Origin: Microthrixaceae bacterium
Lineage (GTDB): Bacteria; Actinomycetota; Acidimicrobiia; Acidimicrobiales; Microtrichaceae
Assembly: GCA_023957995.1 (NCBI GenBank)
Contig: JAMLGK010000003.1
Coordinates: forward strand, 62,001 to 126,000
Reading direction: 5' to 3'
DNA: 64,000 nt
This document shows positions 14,155-53,052 of this stretch, one piece after another. Under the pieces are notes generated by a model that did not search any database, had not been told where the DNA came from, and was given only the letters and a program-made list of their open reading frames with translations. The translations under genes and the position numbers were made by a program. Within the stretch, counting starts at the first letter, position 1; every line of letters begins with the position of its first letter.

Positions 14155-15584
14155 ATGAGGTTGTTTCGGGTGGTAGCACCACTGTTGGCGGTGGCCTTGA
14201 TGGTTATGTTCGTGCCGGTGGTGGAGGTCGGAGCGCAACCTGGCGCTCCGACCCTCACCGGCTATCCGCAGGGAACGATCGGTAGCGACAACGCCGCTTT
14301 CAGCTTCCATGCATCGGGCGCCGACAGCTACCAGTGCCGGGTCTTCGATACCGGTACTGCCGAGGCGGTGCTCGGCCCGCATGGGCCAACTGCACCGGGT
14401 CGACCACCGGCTACCACCAGGCCACTTCCCAACCCGAGGGTGAGCGCACCTTCGAGGTCCGCGCCCTCGAGGGCGGCACGCCCGGACCGTCGGTCGAACA
14501 CGATTGGTGGTCACATCAGATCCGGTGGGTGGATCTCGGAGCCCACAGGTACCTACGACTCGCGGTACGTCACCACCACGTTCACTGCTCCGGGCGCGGC
14601 GTCGTCTCGGTGTCGACTGGAACGGGCTTCCGCTGGATGGGGAAGCTGTCTGGGCAGCCCGCCAGCAGGGCATGTGGAGTCGGCCTGCTCGGTCGACGGC
14701 GCCTACACCCTCGAGGTGCGTGCCGTCGACGCGGCGGGCCCGGCCCGGTGGCTACGGCCAACTTCTGCGGTGGCCGCGGATCTGGACATCGACTGGATCT
14801 CGAAGCCTGAGGGCACCACGTCGTCCCGGTATGTGACGGTCTACGTTCACTGCCATCTGCAACCGAAGCCTCGACTGCCGGACTGACACAGGATCTGGGG
14901 ATTGTTCAAGCAGCTCCGGCCAGCAGGGCATGTGGGAGTCCACAAGGCTGGCCGACGGCGAACACACCCTCGAGGTGCGTGCGAAGGACGCAAAGGGCAC
15001 GGGCACCGTGGCCAGCGCCACCTTCTCACGGTGAGCGGCGCACTTGGCGTGAACTGGGTGTCGAGGCCGGCAGGCGCCTTCACCTCCCGGTATGTGACAG
15101 CGACGTTCACCGCGCCCGGGGCCGTCGACTTCCAGTGTCGGCTCGACGGCCTTCCCGCTGCGTGGGGGAGCTGCTCGGGCAGTTCGGGGCAGCAGGGCAT
15201 GTGGAGTCGCCCTGTTTCGATCCCGGAACCCACACTCGAGGGTGCGCTCGCGACAACGGCAACATCGGCGCAGCGCCAGAAAGCACCACGTTCACGGTGC
15301 AGCGACCGCTCATGCGGAGTGGATCGCCCGCCCACAGGGCAGCCTCGACGGAACGGCTGCACGGCAACGTTCACGGCACCCGGAGCCACCGGGTTCAAGT
15401 GCAAGGTCGACGGTGGGACGTACGTGAACTGCGGGTCTGGAATCCAGGGCACATGGGCCTCCACCGCGCCGGAGCCCACACCTGTAAGGTGAAAGCTGTC
15501 GATGGTACGGTTGAGGCTCCGGAGGCATCCACGACTTCACGATCGCACCGTCCACGGGGCCCTCACTCGAGGTGGAATGTCACC

Positions 15585-21907: not shown

Positions 21908-23833
21908 CTACGTATCCCGGCTGACCACCACCGGCTGCCGCGACCGGTTGAGCCAACCCGACACGCGATGCCACCCTGCGCGGACGAAGCCGGTGATCCC
22001 GTCGGGGTAGAGCACCGCCATGGCCACCAACAACAGTCCCGACACCGCGAACTGGTACTCCGACGGGTTGCCCACGTCACCGCCGGTGGCGATGGCGAGA
22101 AGACCCACCGGAGCCAGGATTCCCGCCGTCAGTGAACCCGACATGGCTGCGATGCCGGCCAGATAGGTGAGCGCGACCAACGACAGCGAGCTGAACACGC
22201 CGAACGAGTCGGCCGAGAGCGTCAGGCGTTGGTACGCGAGCAGACATCCGCCGAGTCCGGCGAGCACAGCTGACAACGCGAACCCCGACAACTTCGCCAT
22301 CCTCACGTTGACCCCAGCGGCCGCTGCGGCCTGTTCGTTGGCGCGCACGGCCAACCAGGACAGCCCCGTGTTGCTGCGCCGGAGGTTCGCCACCAGCACC
22401 CCACACACGGCGAGCACCACAACGCACATCAATCCGAATGCGACCCGCGGGTAGGCGTCCCCCGCGGCGGTGATCGACAGGTCGATCGGGCCGACCGCGG
22501 GCTCGGGTACCTGCGCCGATGTGCCTCCCACGAACCAGTCCCACTTGAAGAGCAGCTCCTGGATCGCGACCGCTGCGCCGAGGGTCACGATCGCCAGGTT
22601 GAGTCCGCGTACCTTCACCGCTGGGAGTCCCACGAGGACTCCCAGGCATCCGGTCAGGGCGACCGCGACGAGCGGCGCGATCGGAAAGGGAAGTCCCGCA
22701 TCGGTGAGCCGAACCATCGAGAAGGCTGCGAAGCCCGCGAAGGCGTAGGGCGCGAGCGAGATCTGGCCGACGAACCCGGTCACAACCACGACCGAGAGCG
22801 CCATCACGGCGAAGATCACCGAGGTGATCAGGGCGAAGCGCCAACTGGATTCACCGAAGGACAACAGGGCCACCGCGGCGGCGATGAGAGCAACGGTGAC
22901 CGGCCAGATGGCTCGTGGCTCGGGAGCCACCGGGTAGCGGCCCTCGCGCAGATGACCCCGTGTGGGGAGGCTCTCCCCCCGAAAGACCATGACCGCCAGG
23001 ATGACGAGGAACGGAAGGCCCTGCTGCAGGCCCACGTCGGGCAACCAGTCGATGTCCGACTGGAGGTTCAACAACCAGGACTGCGCCATGCCGATCCCCA
23101 GGGCGGCCGCGGCGGTTATCGGATAGGAACGGAACCCTGCGATCAGGGCCGCTGCAAGAGCGGGCACTATCAGCAGGGCATTGTTGAGCGGATCGAGGGC
23201 GACGATCTGCGCCGAGAAGATCATCGCGAGTCCCGCCAGCGAGGTGGCGATCATCCAGTTCAACGCCGCGATGCGCTCGGGATTGATGCCGGCCAGCAGA
23301 GCACCCTTTTCGTTCTCGGCCGAGGCCGTGGTCACCAACCCGAAGCGGGTGTGGCGGCTGAGTGCCCAGAGCACGGCGGCCAGCAGCACCACCATGGCCC
23401 CGAGCAGGAGTCGGTCGCTGCCCACGAGTCGGCCCAGCACCATCACGTTCGACCGGGGCAACACGGGTCGAACCGTCGGTGTGAGCTGCCATTCGAGCCC
23501 GATGACAGCCCAGAAGTAGAGGAACAGCCCGACCGAGGCGACCACCCGGGCGAGGCCCGGCGCGTGCCGCAACGGTCTGAAGACGAGCGTGTGGATCACC
23601 AGGCCCAGCAGCGCTCCGAAGACCACGAACACCAGCAGGGCGGTGACCACGGTGGGCCTGGGCAGCAGCGGAATGCGGTGGGGGATGGCGAACAGTGGAA
23701 GGACCAGGTCGCCGGTCTCGCGGAACTCGAAGAAGGCGAACGCCAGGTAGGTGCCCGTGGCCGCGTGGGCGAAGTTGACCACGCCCGAGGAGCGGTAGGT
23801 CATGACCACGCCCATGGCGAGAGCGGCGATCAC
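21908..23833 (-). CDS. Fused branched-chain-type ABC permease (LivH-LivM)
   Basis: The 641 visible residues carry two permease halves: a LivH-like half (TYRSSGVVNFAHAATG near the start, LVFRPLRHAPGLARVVASVG) and a LivM-like half from about residue 310 (GFVGQISLAPYAFAGFAAF, KVRGLNLAIVTLGAAVAIQE, RANEQAAAAAGVN). There are about 17 hydrophobic segments. It would form the membrane channel of an importer for branched-chain amino acids, amides or urea-like substrates. The listed GTG lies inside the first helix. Homology-like sequence (SQLAYLILGLGGGA) continues upstream to about 23881 without ATG, GTG or TTG; the only start-like site is an ATC seven bases after GGAGA. It is downstream of the binding-protein gene and overlaps the RTX gene end by 17 bases. 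Confidence 0.88.
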   Translation of the reverse strand: MIAALAMGVVMTYRSSGVVNFAHAATGTYLAFAFFEFRETGDLVLPLFAIPHRIPLLPRPTVVTALLVFVVFGALLGLVIHTLVFRPLRHAPGLARVVASVGLFLYFWAVIGLEWQLTPTVRPVLPRSNVMVLGRLVGSDRLLLGAMVVLLAAVLWALSRHTRFGLVTTASAENEKGALLAGINPERIAALNWMIATSLAGLAMIFSAQIVALDPLNNALLIVPALAAALIAGFRSYPITAAAALGIGMAQSWLLNLQSDIDWLPDVGLQQGLPFLVILAVMVFRGESLPTRGHLREGRYPVAPEPRAIWPVTVALIAAAVALLSFGESSWRFALITSVIFAVMALSVVVVTGFVGQISLAPYAFAGFAAFSMVRLTDAGLPFPIAPLVAVALTGCLGVLVGLPAVKVRGLNLAIVTLGAAVAIQELLFKWDWFVGGTSAQVPEPAVGPIDLSITAAGDAYPRVAFGLMCVVVLAVCGVLVANLRRSNTGLSWLAVRANEQAAAAAGVNVRMAKLSGFALSAVLAGLGGCLLAYQRLTLSADSFGVFSSLSLVALTYLAGIAAMSGSLTAGILAPVGLLAIATGGDVGNPSEYQFAVSGLLLVAMAVLYPDGITGFVRAGWHRVSGWLNRSRQPVVVSRDT

Positions 23834-37241: not shown

Positions 37242-37267
37242 GTGACCCGGTCCGAGGACCGGGTCAC
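37242..37267. promoter_or_regulatory. Perfect 11-bp inverted repeat in the ecm promoter region
   Basis: GTGACCCGGTC (37242-37252) and GACCGGGTCAC (37257-37267) are exact reverse complements around CGAG. No gene ends here, so a terminator is unlikely and an operator is the better reading. Confidence 0.5.
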
Positions 37268-45464: not shown

Positions 45465-46502
45465 ATGACCAACGGAGCAACGACCATGAGCGACAAGTCC
45501 ACCGCAGCGGCGAGTGGAGTCCCCGAGACGATGAGCGCCATCACCCAGGACCGCTACGGCGAGGCACTCGAAGTGCTGTCGACCGGCCGCGTGCCGGTCC
45601 CCGATCCCGGAGCCGACGAGGTGCTCATCGAGGTGGCCGCTGCCGGGGTCGACCAGGGGACCTGGCACCTGGTGGCCGGGATGCCCTTGGTCGTGCGCCT
45701 CGGATTCGGGTTCCGTCGCCCGCGCAACCCGGTTCCCGGGCTCGATGTGTCCGGCACCGTGGTCAAATGCGGTGAAGAGGTCCGGGACCTCGCGCCGGGC
45801 GATGCCGTGTTCGGGATCGCGAAGGGCTCCTTCGCGCAGTACGCCGTGGCCAAGGCGACCAAGATCGTGAAGCGACCCGACTCCCTGCCGGAGCTCGACG
45901 CGGCGGGACTCGCGGTGTCCGGAATCACGGCGCTGCAGGCGGTCCGCGACGTGGCACGGGTGAGCCCGGGCGAACGCGTCCTCGTCGTCGGTGCTTCCGG
46001 CGGTGTCGGGTCGTTCGCGGTCCAGATCGCCAAGAGCCAGGGTGCCGAGGTCGTCGGTGTCTGCAGCGCCGGCAAGGCGGACTTCGTCCGCTCCCTCGGG
46101 GTCGATGACGTGATCGACTACCGCAGCGAGTCGCTGGACGCACGCGGCGTTGGCTACGACGCGATCATCGACACCGGTGGCGCCAACCCGCTCCGCGCAC
46201 TGCGCTCGGTGCTCACCGAGCGCGGCCGCCTCGTGATCGTGGGTGCGGAGACCGGAGGGAAGCTGATCGGCGGTGTCGACCGGCAGTTGCGCGGCGTGCT
46301 GCTGTCCATGTTCTCGCGACAGACCATCAAGACGTTCATCGCCGCCGAGAAGGGCGAGAGCATGACCGTGCTCGCCGATATGGTCGACCGCGGCGATGTG
46401 AGGGTGGGTCTCGGGGCGACCCGTCCACTGCAGGAGGCTGCAGCCGCGATCGACGATCTGCGTGCCGGCCGCTCCCGCGGCAAGACGGTCCTCACCGTCT
46501 GA
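45465..46502 (+). CDS. Zinc-independent alcohol dehydrogenase-like NAD(P)H:quinone-type reductase (MDR family)
   Basis: The 345-residue MDR protein has the substrate-side domain VPVPDPGADEVLIEVAAAGVDQGTW and PGLDVSGTVVKCG, the nucleotide motif VLVVGASGGVGSFAVQIAKSQG, and YDAIIDTGG with LRSVLTERGRLVIVG. There are no structural-zinc cysteines, which places it with quinone reductase/enoyl reductase-like MDRs. ATG 45465 follows GAGAGG; ATG 45486 with GGAG upstream is an alternative. The divergent TetR gene and its two operators suggest induction by an aromatic or quinone-like compound. Confidence 0.88.
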   Translation: MTNGATTMSDKSTAAASGVPETMSAITQDRYGEALEVLSTGRVPVPDPGADEVLIEVAAAGVDQGTWHLVAGMPLVVRLGFGFRRPRNPVPGLDVSGTVVKCGEEVRDLAPGDAVFGIAKGSFAQYAVAKATKIVKRPDSLPELDAAGLAVSGITALQAVRDVARVSPGERVLVVGASGGVGSFAVQIAKSQGAEVVGVCSAGKADFVRSLGVDDVIDYRSESLDARGVGYDAIIDTGGANPLRALRSVLTERGRLVIVGAETGGKLIGGVDRQLRGVLLSMFSRQTIKTFIAAEKGESMTVLADMVDRGDVRVGLGATRPLQEAAAAIDDLRAGRSRGKTVLTV

Positions 46503-48783: not shown

Positions 48784-50166
48784 ATGAGTTCCCATCCCTA
48801 CACCGAGCGATTCGAGGTCCTCCGGGCCATTCCCGAAAAGGGCCGTGACGAGTCCGAGATCCTCGCCGAGCTGGCGGAGATGGCCCATGAGGAGGACGCC
48901 ACGTGGGAGACCGGACAGTGCTCGGGCACCATGTACTGCGGAGACCACGAGCACTACGGGTTCATGAACCAGGCGTTCGGGCTCTTCGCCCACATGAACA
49001 CCCTGCAGCGCGACATGTGCCCCAGCGCAACCAAGTTCGAGGGTGAGATCATCGCGATGGCACTGGACCTGCTCAACGCAGACGCCGTCGAGGACGGCGA
49101 GACCTGTGGCCTGATCACCAGCGGGGGGAGCGGGTCGATCGCACACGCCGTGTTGGCCTACCGGGACCATGCCCGTCAGACCCGTGGGATCACCAACCCG
49201 AACTTCGTGAAACCGGAGACCGGGCACCCGGCGTTCAACAAGGCCTGTCATCTCTTCGGTGTGGAGCTGCGGACCGTGCCTGTGGACCCGGACACGACGG
49301 TCGTCGATCCGGCTGCCATGGCCGAACACATCGACGAGAACACCGTTGCGATCATGGGGTCGGCCTGCAACTACGGCTACGGAACGATCGACCCGATCGC
49401 CGGGCTCAGCGACCTGGCGATCGAACGCGGCGTCGGCCTGCACGTGGACGGCTGCCTCGGTGGTTTCATCCTCCCCTGGGGCGAGAAGCTCGGCTATGAC
49501 ATCCCGCCGTTCGACTTCCGACATCCGGGGGTCACCACGATCAGCGCGGACACCCACAAGTACGCCTACGGATTCAAGGGCACCTCGGTGCTGGCCTTTC
49601 GCGACAAGGCCCTGCGCAACTCGCAGTACTTCTACCTGCCGGAGTGGACCGGCGGTAAGTACTGCTCTCCCGGAATGGACGGTTCGCGCTCCAACGGGCT
49701 GATCGCGGCCACCTGGGCGGGCATGGCACGCCTCGGGTCCGAGGGCTACCTCAAGTACGCCAAGGCGATCTTCGAAACGGCGTTCGCCATGCAGGACGCC
49801 GTGCGCAGCCACCCCGAACTCCGGATCATGGGCAACCCGTCGTTCTGTTTCAGCTTCACCTCCGACGAGTTCGACATCTATCACGTGAACGACTTCATGC
49901 GAACCCGTGGCTGGCGCTTCAACGGACAGCAGTATCCCAACGCGATCCACATGGCGGTCACCCGTCCCCAGACCCAACCCGGAGTGCTGGAGCGGTTCAC
50001 GACCGACCTCGCCGAAGCCGTTCCGTATGCCCTCGAGCACGCGGGGGACACCCCCGACAGCGGCGCCATCTACGGCGGCGTCGAGGGCGGCATGACCGAC
50101 GAGGCCGATGAGTTCATCAGGGCCCTCATGGCCGACCTCATGGACGCCCAGCAGTCCCTACCCTGA
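48784..50166 (+). CDS. PLP-dependent lyase/decarboxylase, sphingosine-1-phosphate lyase-like
   Basis: The 460-residue fold-type I PLP enzyme carries the Schiff-base lysine Lys259 in SADTHKYAYGFKGTS, the SPL-type hallmark, with LHVDGCLGGF upstream and ITSGGSGSIAHA at the phosphate site. SPL-like enzymes cleave phosphorylated amino alcohols, and others in the group decarboxylate amino acids. An upstream kinase gene would fit a phosphorylate-then-cleave pathway, but that is inference. CAGGAGATCCA is a good ribosome site for ATG 48784. A hairpin follows the stop. Confidence 0.87.
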   Translation: MSSHPYTERFEVLRAIPEKGRDESEILAELAEMAHEEDATWETGQCSGTMYCGDHEHYGFMNQAFGLFAHMNTLQRDMCPSATKFEGEIIAMALDLLNADAVEDGETCGLITSGGSGSIAHAVLAYRDHARQTRGITNPNFVKPETGHPAFNKACHLFGVELRTVPVDPDTTVVDPAAMAEHIDENTVAIMGSACNYGYGTIDPIAGLSDLAIERGVGLHVDGCLGGFILPWGEKLGYDIPPFDFRHPGVTTISADTHKYAYGFKGTSVLAFRDKALRNSQYFYLPEWTGGKYCSPGMDGSRSNGLIAATWAGMARLGSEGYLKYAKAIFETAFAMQDAVRSHPELRIMGNPSFCFSFTSDEFDIYHVNDFMRTRGWRFNGQQYPNAIHMAVTRPQTQPGVLERFTTDLAEAVPYALEHAGDTPDSGAIYGGVEGGMTDEADEFIRALMADLMDAQQSLP

Positions 50167-50177
50167 CCGTCCCGAAT

Positions 50178-50208
50178 CCTCCGGCTCCCAACCGGGTGGA
50201 CCCGGAGG
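50178..50208. terminator. Hairpin between convergent PLP lyase and MarR genes
   Basis: CCTCCGG (50178-50184) pairs with CCGGAGG (50202-50208), and inner GGGT/ACCC pairing is possible. It sits between the stops at 50166 and 50210. Confidence 0.5.
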
Positions 50209-50209
50209 C

Positions 50210-50698
50210 TCAGAGCTCGGAGTCGGGACGTAGTCGGCGTTCCAGTAGGGAGTCGAGGGCTCCGAGGTGGTCGCTGAGCAGACCCAGGTTCTGCATGAGA
50301 TGGTCCATCGCCGCTGCTCCGACAGCGTCCTCTGCCTCCTCGAAGAGTTCGCGGCGCGCGGTACGGGCCGCGTCGACCGCCTGGTTTCCGCGCGCGCTGA
50401 GGCGGATCCATGACACCCGTGCGTCGTCGGGGTTGCGCTGTCTCTCCACCAGGCCGCGGCGCTCGAGGTCCGCGACCTGCTTGGACATCGCCTGCTGGGT
50501 CACGCCCGATGACACTGCGAGCTCGGAGATGCTCCGGGGCCCGGCCGTGAGGTGTTGGAAGACGTAGCCGTCGCTGGCTCGAACCTGTTCGCCGGCGACC
50601 CGGCGAACGGCCTCCAGCGTGCGGGCGCGGAGTTCCGACGCGCACGCTTCGACGAGAAGGGCGAGGTCCCCTGCGGGGTCCCTTGCTGGTTCGGCCAC
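50210..50698 (-). CDS. MarR family transcriptional regulator
   Basis: The 162-residue winged-helix regulator reads YVFQHLTAGPRSISELAVSSGVTQQAMSKQVADLERRGLVERQRNPDDARVSWIRLSARG, which contains recognition helix and wing. Flanking helices form the dimer interface. GTG 50698 is used, but GTG 50713 is in frame and would fit a leaderless transcript. It is divergent from a flavin-oxidase-fold gene, with two ACACAAC-type palindromes between them, as is typical for MarR autoregulation. The inducer is unknown. Confidence 0.9.
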   Translation of the reverse strand: MAEPARDPAGDLALLVEACASELRARTLEAVRRVAGEQVRASDGYVFQHLTAGPRSISELAVSSGVTQQAMSKQVADLERRGLVERQRNPDDARVSWIRLSARGNQAVDAARTARRELFEEAEDAVGAAAMDHLMQNLGLLSDHLGALDSLLERRLRPDSEL

Positions 50699-50710
50699 CC
50701 CGAGAACATA

Positions 50711-50726
50711 CACAACTGTGGTTGTG
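50711..50726. promoter_or_regulatory. MarR operator 1
   Basis: CACAAC and GTTGTG flank TGTG. It shares the CACAAC half-site with the stronger palindrome 10 bases downstream and overlaps the possible GTG 50713 start of marR. Confidence 0.65.
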
Positions 50727-50735
50727 GGACCGTAG

Positions 50736-50756
50736 ATACACAACTAAGTTGTGTAT
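50736..50756. promoter_or_regulatory. MarR operator 2, perfect palindrome abutting a start codon
   Basis: ATACACAACT and AGTTGTGTAT are perfect 10-bp arms around a single A. The palindrome ends one base before ATG 50757 and contains TAAGTT (50745-50750), the likely -10 of a leaderless promoter, so bound repressor would block the polymerase directly. Confidence 0.8.
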
Positions 50757-51224
50757 ATGCCATCACGAAGAGCAGACCTGACCGAGACAGTTGCCGTGGC
50801 CCGGCCGATCGTCGAGCGGATCGTGTGGGCCACCGTCGCCACCGCAGGTGCCGACGGGGAACCGCGTACCCGGATCATGCATCCGGTGTGGTTCTGGGAA
50901 GGCGAGGTGCCCACGGCGCTGATCTCCGCGCGTCGCACCCCGGTCAAGGTGAGCCATCTCGAACAGAACCCGTCGATCAGCTGCTACTACTGGGATCCAG
51001 CGCACGACACCGTCGCCGTCGAGGGGCGAACGAGTTGGGTGCCGCCCGAGCGGGTCGCCGACGCATGGGAGAGGGTGGCAGCGCCGGAGCCTCCGGTGGG
51101 GTTCGATCCGGCGATGATCTGGCCCGACGGTCCCACAGATCCGGGCTGCGGTTTCCTGGAGGTGGTGGCCCACCGCATCCTGGCCACTCCCGCAGCCCGG
51201 GAGGGGCTTCTCTGGTCCGCCTAG
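50757..51224 (+). CDS. Pyridoxamine 5'-phosphate oxidase-fold (flavin/F420-binding) protein
   Basis: The 155-residue split-barrel protein has ERIVWATVATAGADGEPRTRIMHPVWFWEG as the first strands, then TPVKVSHLEQNPSISCYYWDPAHDTVAVEGRTSWV. These are the features of general-stress or F420/FMN-binding proteins of this fold, not of true PdxH. The catalytic role is undefined. ATG 50757 directly follows the palindrome; GTG 50751 would place the start inside it. Expression is expected to be repressed by the divergent MarR protein. Confidence 0.82.
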   Translation: MPSRRADLTETVAVARPIVERIVWATVATAGADGEPRTRIMHPVWFWEGEVPTALISARRTPVKVSHLEQNPSISCYYWDPAHDTVAVEGRTSWVPPERVADAWERVAAPEPPVGFDPAMIWPDGPTDPGCGFLEVVAHRILATPAAREGLLWSA

Positions 51225-51341
51225 GTCGGTGCAATGCGATGCCGGTAGCGAGTTGGTCCCACACTCGACCCCGGGAGTCGTCGGGCTCCAGCAGGTCGCC
51301 ATGGAGTCCTCCGGGTAGATCCGGCGACTGGGATCCCTGGG

Positions 51342-51347
51342 TAGCCT
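51342..51347 (+). promoter_or_regulatory. -10-like hexamer TAGCCT before the YjbR gene
   Basis: TAGCCT ends 6 bases before GTG 51354, in a GGTAG-CCT-CTACC inverted repeat. A leaderless transcript is suggested. Confidence 0.45.
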
Positions 51348-51353
51348 CTACCA

Positions 51354-51749
51354 GTGGCCCATCCACAGATGTTCGACGACGACGACCCGGTCCTCGCCAG
51401 GGTGCGCGGGGCAGCGCTCCGATTTCCCGACGCGCAGGAGAAGGTGTCCCATGGTCGACCGGCATTCTTCACCAAGAAGGTGTTCGCCTACTACGGCGGA
51501 TCCCTGAAGGTCGACGGCGAGTGGGTGCAGCACCCGCACTCGATCGTGGTCGTTCCCGACTCAGCGGAGCGCGAGGCGCTGCTCCAGGACGAGCGTGTGT
51601 ACCTGCCCGCCTACCTCGGGCCGTCGGGGTGGATCGGCGTGGACCTGGAAGACATCTCCGACTGGACCGAGGTGGTCGAACTACTGGATTCGTCCTACAG
51701 GCTCACCGCCCCCAAACGGAGCATCGCAACGCTCGATTCCCTGGACTGA
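51354..51749 (+). CDS. MmcQ/YjbR family protein
   Basis: The 131-residue protein has the small alpha/beta fold typical of YjbR: ARVRGAALRFPDAQEKVSHGRPAFFTKKVFAYYGG, SIVVVPDSAEREALLQDE and YLPAYLGPSGWIGVDLED, ending with ELLDSSYRLTAPKR. These resemble DNA-binding/cyanobacterial CyaY-like folds, but their function is not established. GTG 51354 follows a -10-like hexamer and lacks a ribosome site. It is followed by a strong inverted repeat at 51802. Confidence 0.82.
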   Translation: MAHPQMFDDDDPVLARVRGAALRFPDAQEKVSHGRPAFFTKKVFAYYGGSLKVDGEWVQHPHSIVVVPDSAEREALLQDERVYLPAYLGPSGWIGVDLEDISDWTEVVELLDSSYRLTAPKRSIATLDSLD

Positions 51750-52688: not shown

Positions 52689-52762
52689 TGGAGCGGGTGA
52701 GGAGAATCGAACTCCCGTATTCAGCTTGGGAAGCTGATGTTCTACCATTGAACTACACCCGC
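52689..52762 (-). tRNA. tRNA-Gly(CCC), CCA encoded
   Basis: Reverse complement of the interval folds as a cloverleaf: acceptor GCGGGTG/CACCCGC, a D arm with AATGGTAG, anticodon stem TCAGC/GCTGA around the loop TTCCCAA (anticodon CCC), and a T arm containing GTTCGATTC. The discriminator is T and the CCA end is encoded. The mature tRNA is 74 bases. A -10-like TAGAGT lies about 52 bases upstream on the minus strand (52814-52819). Confidence 0.95.
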
Positions 52763-53052
52763 GTGATTTGCTGGCCGGGACGGCGGGATGGCCGCTGCCC
52801 GAAGCGTGGGTCACTCTAGCGCCCGGCCCGATGCGGTCTCACGCCCGGGTAGTTCCACCCGGCCCCGGGCGTCGTCGACGAGGGTAGGCCGACCCATCGG
52901 TGGGAAACCTGCCCATGGGGGACCTGCGCGTTCGTCTGTACAACTGGACCCCTAGCAAGTCCGAGAAGCGATGATCCCCGCGCCAACCGTTGGTCGCAGG
53001 CGCGGGAGTAGCCAGGCGAAACCGGCTCGGGCCGTCACAGGTGAGGTTTCAC
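52763..53052. other. Region between tRNA-Gly and the surface protein gene
   Basis: No gene was found. It holds a perfect 9-bp inverted repeat (ACGCCCGGG at 52841-52849, CCCGGGCGT at 52864-52872). A second hairpin (CCCGCGCC 52977-52984, GGCGCGGG 52999-53006) lies in the leader of the surface protein. GTGAGG precedes ATG 53053. Confidence 0.5.

Follow-up and report, generated by a model that had tools for sequence, protein, structure and literature searches.

The 58 bp that separate a gene for a MarR-family regulator from a divergently transcribed gene for a PNPOx-like protein very probably hold two back-to-back promoters, each giving rise to a leaderless mRNA, together with two operators through which the regulator would repress both its neighbor and itself. 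The features of the locus are listed in Table 1, with all positions referring to the window, namely the entire 64,000-nucleotide (64-kb) stretch of DNA that was analyzed. In the proposed mechanism, a MarR dimer on operator A would block the target -10 and the first base, and a dimer on operator B would adjoin the marR -10 and cover the target -35 (TTGTGG). The bound MarR would exclude RNA polymerase such that the target and marR itself are repressed, and a small ligand would free the repressor to allow production of what may be a flavin- or F420-type enzyme. The proposed repression and autorepression follow from the positions of the operators relative to the promoters, and the MarR protein is the presumed binder of both sites.

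Table 1. Features of the divergent marR/PNPOx-like locus
Feature	Position	Strand	Description
marR	50210-50698	-	162-aa regulator of the MarR family; GTG 50698 is its predicted leaderless start
Target gene	50757-51224	+	155-aa PNPOx-like protein; ATG 50757 is its predicted leaderless start
Start-to-start gap	50699-50756		58 bp; contains both predicted promoters and both predicted operators
Operator A (predicted)	50736-50756		ATACACAACT-A-AGTTGTGTAT; core CACAAC-TAA-GTTGTG; abuts ATG 50757
Operator B (predicted)	50711-50726		CACAAC-TGTG-GTTGTG; 12 bp from operator A core
Target -10 (predicted)	50745-50750	+	TAAGTT; within operator A, 6 nt before ATG 50757
Target -35 (predicted)	50722-50727	+	TTGTGG; separated from the -10 by 17 nt; coincides for the most part with the right half-site of operator B
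marR -10 (predicted)	50705-50710	-	TATGTT; 6 nt before GTG 50698; adjoins operator B

The two proteins and the predicted operators between their genes

The regulator contains a MarR winged-helix domain as judged by Pfam, with matches to both MarR_2 (PF12802, E = 2.9e-12, 47 bits against a cut-off of 27) and MarR (PF01047, E = 3.7e-10, 40 bits against a cut-off of 24.6). The solved structures nearest to it are weak matches, the best having an E-value of 3e-6. The target belongs to the PNPOx-like proteins on the basis of a 34.2-bit match to PF01243 (gathering cut-off 28.1). Its score against TIGR03618, which describes the Rv1155-type F420-dependent PPOX oxidoreductases, is 28.9 bits and thus falls below the NCBIfam cut-off of 79.05. 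A search of the PDB sequences yielded no relative of the enzyme, and its structure model is poor (pLDDT of 54). A paralogue that is 35% identical to the target is encoded in the same genome (L009, G000:C35:55864-56256), and the palindrome does not accompany it.

The initial annotation described a perfect palindrome with 10-bp arms positioned up against the target start codon and covering the sequence TAAGTT. Both observations are correct. The arms of operator A are separated by a 1-nt center, the base immediately following them is the A of the ATG, and the TAAGTT hexamer lies entirely inside the repeat, which was also detected in an inverted-repeat search. Note that the spacer within the core of operator A is 3 nt in length, whereas that in the other sites is 4 nt. 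The core of operator B is located 12 bp from the marR start codon, GTG 50698. Judged by sequence, the arrangement is that of a 16-20-bp palindromic operator lying over promoter elements beside a divergent target, the site itself being a predicted one.

Farther along the window two additional features were observed. The sole tRNA of the window, a tRNA-Gly (ccc), is encoded at 52689-52762 on the minus strand. A match to the c-di-GMP-II-GAG riboswitch at 52955-53036 on the plus strand, scoring exactly at the gathering threshold (40 bits), is situated just upstream of a large gene for a repeat-containing, surface-type protein whose open reading frame extends to 57603.

Leaderless start signals

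Whether an operator can sensibly touch a start codon depends upon the manner in which the mRNA begins, and the initial annotation had proposed that the target is transcribed without a leader. A sample of 464 kb, composed of the window and 20 segments of 20 kb drawn from its genome, was surveyed for TANNNT hexamers preceding start codons. For in-frame ATG codons, 27, 14, 9, and 5 matches were observed at gaps of 6, 7, 8, and 9 nt, respectively, as compared to a total of 15 over the 20 offsets from 11 to 30. For GTG codons the maximum is likewise at 6 nt, with 14 matches. When 270 genes were chosen by codon-position GC, 81 carried the leaderless signature, against a background expectation, by arithmetic from the offset counts, of approximately 10. 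A count of Shine-Dalgarno-like sequences gave no peak but carries little information, as internal candidate starts were included in it.

The locus under study has a TANNNT -10 at the distance from the start codon (approximately 6-9 nt) that is seen in other parts of the genome and is characteristic of leaderless actinobacterial transcripts. Indeed, the gap is 6 nt both for ATG 50757 (TAAGTT) and for GTG 50698 (TATGTT), and thus each gene conforms to the leaderless pattern of its own genome. That the target is transcribed without a leader is strongly supported by this sequence signature and by its retention, together with the operator, in the three related loci described below. From the same signature marR also looks to be leaderless from GTG 50698, although no good -35 was seen for it upon inspection of the sequence. 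The exact 5' ends of both mRNAs are, in this sense, predicted ones.

A second reading is that MarR recognizes the operator but that the target mRNA has a leader, having been initiated at a promoter farther upstream, inside or beyond marR, in which case the palindrome would function either as a roadblock or, at the start codon, as an RNA hairpin. An RNA copy of the palindrome could fold, and a simple sigma-70 scan of 50150-51400 revealed no promoter-like site at the locus. The position of TAAGTT, exactly at the leaderless offset of the genome, argues against such a leader, as do the retention of TANNNT at 6-8 nt in the orthologues and the preservation of the 17-nt spacing between the -35 and -10 elements in a relative of the same genus. 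We consider a leadered target quite unlikely.

The CACAAC/GTTGTG site that had been proposed to overlap a possible marR start is indeed present as operator B. The overlap, however, holds only for a longer marR frame beginning at GTG 50713, and GTG 50698 is the better supported start codon. The longer version is open and would encode a protein of 167 aa, with operator B covering its start codon. It lacks a TANNNT at gaps of 5-10 nt, whereas GTG 50698 has one at a gap of 6, a value shared by the marR starts in two relatives, one of the same genus and the other of the same family. Initiation at GTG 50713 is thus an unlikely alternative that would affect marR alone and would be compatible with the leaderless reading of the target.

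Uniqueness and conservation of the predicted operator

Perfect inverted repeats with 10-bp arms and gaps of 0-8 nt occur in eight rows of the 64-kb window when nested ones are counted, as compared to a mean of 1.5 and a maximum of 5 in 20 first-order Markov simulations. Other perfect repeats with arms of at least 10 bp, all of them G+C-rich, are located at 14226-14253, 22621-22645, 37242-37267, and 46202-46223. Rarity of the palindrome by itself was rejected as proof of function, given that such repeats arise by chance and that others are present in the window. Repeats with at least six A/T per 10-bp arm, as found in operator A, appeared in none of the 20 simulations. For the 13-bp core with two or fewer mismatches, 0.67 occurrences are expected in the shuffled window. 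Among the 81 signature-bearing promoters of the 464-kb sample, the palindrome score of 10 observed here is the highest, with a shuffled expectation for the entire set of 0.02.

Within the whole 3.54-Mb genome, the operator core with up to three mismatches occurs once. The pattern ACAACN{3,4}GTTGT is found at two sites in the genome, both of them inside the 58-bp gap. The reversed-pattern control also gave two, and thus what carries information is the location of the two real sites in a single gap. A chance origin of the palindrome is very unlikely. A search for a wider regulon with the looser pattern CAACNNNNGTTG was set aside as uninformative (72 places versus 54 for the control), the tighter pattern yielding only the two sites of the locus.

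For comparison with relatives, the PNPOx-like protein was sought in the genomes of the family, the order, and the phylum, with matches in 6 of 33, 22 of 397, and 9 of 396, respectively; matches to MarR were found in 14 of the 397 order genomes. Three loci proved informative, those of G020, from the genus of the genome under study (G000), G005, from the same family, and G073, from another family of the order. The G020 enzyme is 55% identical to the target, and its gene is separated from marR by the same start-to-start distance of 58 bp. Two operators are again present with the 12-nt separation observed in the window, and whereas 23 of the 24 half-site bases are identical, only 2 of the 12 between the sites are. 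The 17-nt spacing of the -35 and -10 elements is kept, and the gaps are 6 nt for marR and 8 nt for the target.

In G005, the genes are 51 bp apart with a single operator, CACAACATTGGTTGTG, between them, and both starts have a gap of 6 nt. This operator is positioned upstream of the target -10 rather than over it, and therefore the placement of an operator on the start codon is not strictly conserved. In G073, 3 bp separate the end of the operator core from the target ATG, and the gap is 7 nt. The G073 target has no adjacent marR, and the best MarR match elsewhere in that genome, which is 86% complete, is weak (E = 5e-6), so that the site may be recognized by a different protein in that organism.

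Across 30 PNPOx loci, from which the weak matches L007 and L008 were left out, a CAAC-N-GTTG palindrome lies upstream of all three genes with an adjacent marR and of 1 of the 27 without. The ACAACN{3,4}GTTGT sites are concentrated at this locus in G000 (2 of 2), G005 (1 of 1), and G020 (2 of 3). In G073 there are nine such sites in the genome, none of which is at the PNPOx gene, and 13 in the control. The search of the 396 phylum genomes returned only distant PNPOx relatives, none of which is preceded by the palindrome.

An order-wide search with ACAACTAN{1,2}GTTGTN{2,10}ATG gave 17 matches in 16 of the 397 genomes and nine control matches. Sixteen of the 17 were displayed (L042 was absent due to an offset filter), two of which are the loci of the present family; in 7 of the 14 displayed loci outside the family, the ATG is the first codon of an open reading frame of 159-403 aa. 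Because a -10-like TA..GT close to an ATG is built into the search pattern, the excess reflects, in part, leaderless promoters. It was therefore rejected as evidence for this particular MarR. One of the sites, L046, which lies near position 1500 on the minus strand in a different genome from the order, consists of a similar palindrome, ACAACTAGGTTGTGGTCATG, which ends at the start of an open reading frame that reads like a TetR-type regulator.

These comparisons bear upon the possibility that a different regulator binds the palindromes, with the neighboring MarR controlling something else. The operator-like site of G073, with no marR beside it, is in keeping with such a possibility, as are the palindromes of the same general shape found up against the starts of other genes in the order, that of L046 among them. 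Set against it are the co-occurrence of palindrome and adjacent marR and the fact that five of the six ACAACN{3,4}GTTGT sites in G000, G005, and G020 combined fall at this locus. A regulator other than the adjacent MarR strikes us as highly improbable. The placement of a MarR operator over the target -10, as originally proposed, is supported by the conservation of operator and signature in the three related loci and by the association of the palindrome with marR, and the predicted regulon comprises just marR and one PNPOx-like gene.

Relation to known systems and implications

The divergent pair has counterparts among characterized regulators. In Streptomyces formicae, the MarR protein ForZ acts on a divergent exporter target, forAA, at a genome-unique site that spans the target transcription start; the regulator transcript is leaderless, and the one site is proposed to autoactivate forZ (PMC12421854). 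Shared with the locus described here are the MarR family, the divergent target, the single genomic binding region between the genes, the placement of a site across the target transcription start, and the leaderless regulator, the last three being predicted in our case. In contrast to ForZ, with its one site, exporter, and autoactivation, the present pair has two predicted sites, a leaderless signature at both genes, and an enzyme as its target. CrtR of Corynebacterium glutamicum, the regulator of crtE, is a MarR protein with a divergent target, autoregulation, a tiny regulon, and a leaderless regulator transcript in an organism in which 33% of the transcripts are leaderless; crtE has a 114-nt leader, and a TTAA motif lies 25-28 bases upstream of its transcription start (PMC5401885). 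The two systems have in common the MarR family, the divergent target, autoregulation, a tiny regulon, and a leaderless regulator (these three predicted here), and a leaderless-rich actinobacterial host, and they differ in the TTAA motif and in that crtE is leadered whereas the target here is predicted to be leaderless.

A parallel for an operator lying over the promoter of a leaderless transcript, a placement that is predicted in our case, comes from Rhodobacter sphaeroides. For AcuR and the acuR-acuI-dddL operon, the operator overlaps the promoter of an mRNA beginning directly with the AUG, as demonstrated by 5' RACE and operator mutants (PMC3017554). AcuR, however, belongs to the TetR family and is encoded by the first gene of the operon it represses rather than by a divergent one.

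In Tn1721 tetR and lambda cI, the operators lie in the same compact control region as the leaderless repressor genes. The resemblance to the present locus is in the leaderless repressor gene, and the difference is that these are mobile-element repressors of other families. Both are named as leaderless in the AcuR report (PMC3017554). The locus itself was absent from the literature found on leaderless MarR operators that touch a start codon and on leaderless Acidimicrobiia.

Given the precedents of ForZ, CrtR, and AcuR, the layout belongs to a known kind, and the best reading of the design is that of an ordinary MarR divergent pair compressed by leaderlessness. The compact repressor-promoter-start design put forward in the initial annotation is thus upheld computationally, although it is not unusual, being the predictable result of leaderless transcription. 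When mRNAs have no leader, an operator is forced up close to the start codon, and its contact with the ATG is accordingly expected under leaderless transcription, a neat but ordinary layout. What the locus contributes, as read from the sequences, is the combination of two operators, two genes that are leaderless by signature, and a conserved geometry in a little-studied class.

A more far-reaching, and in our view doubtful, proposal is that in the Acidimicrobiia the operator, the -35 and -10 elements, and the initiation codon of this module may constitute one fused element in which the half-sites serve as the target hexamers, and that selection acts on the 58-bp double-leaderless geometry itself. 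The idea of selection derives from the exact retention of that geometry in two species that have diverged in the intervening bases. If such a fusion exists, a change in the operator would alter promoter strength and start-codon context together.

In this genome, the computed leaderless signature accompanies approximately one in four of the genes examined, and the locus shows the layout of routine repressor control where mRNAs have no leader. With its genome-unique pair of operators, it offers a clean test case for the fusion of promoter and operator at leaderless genes in a little-studied actinobacterial class.
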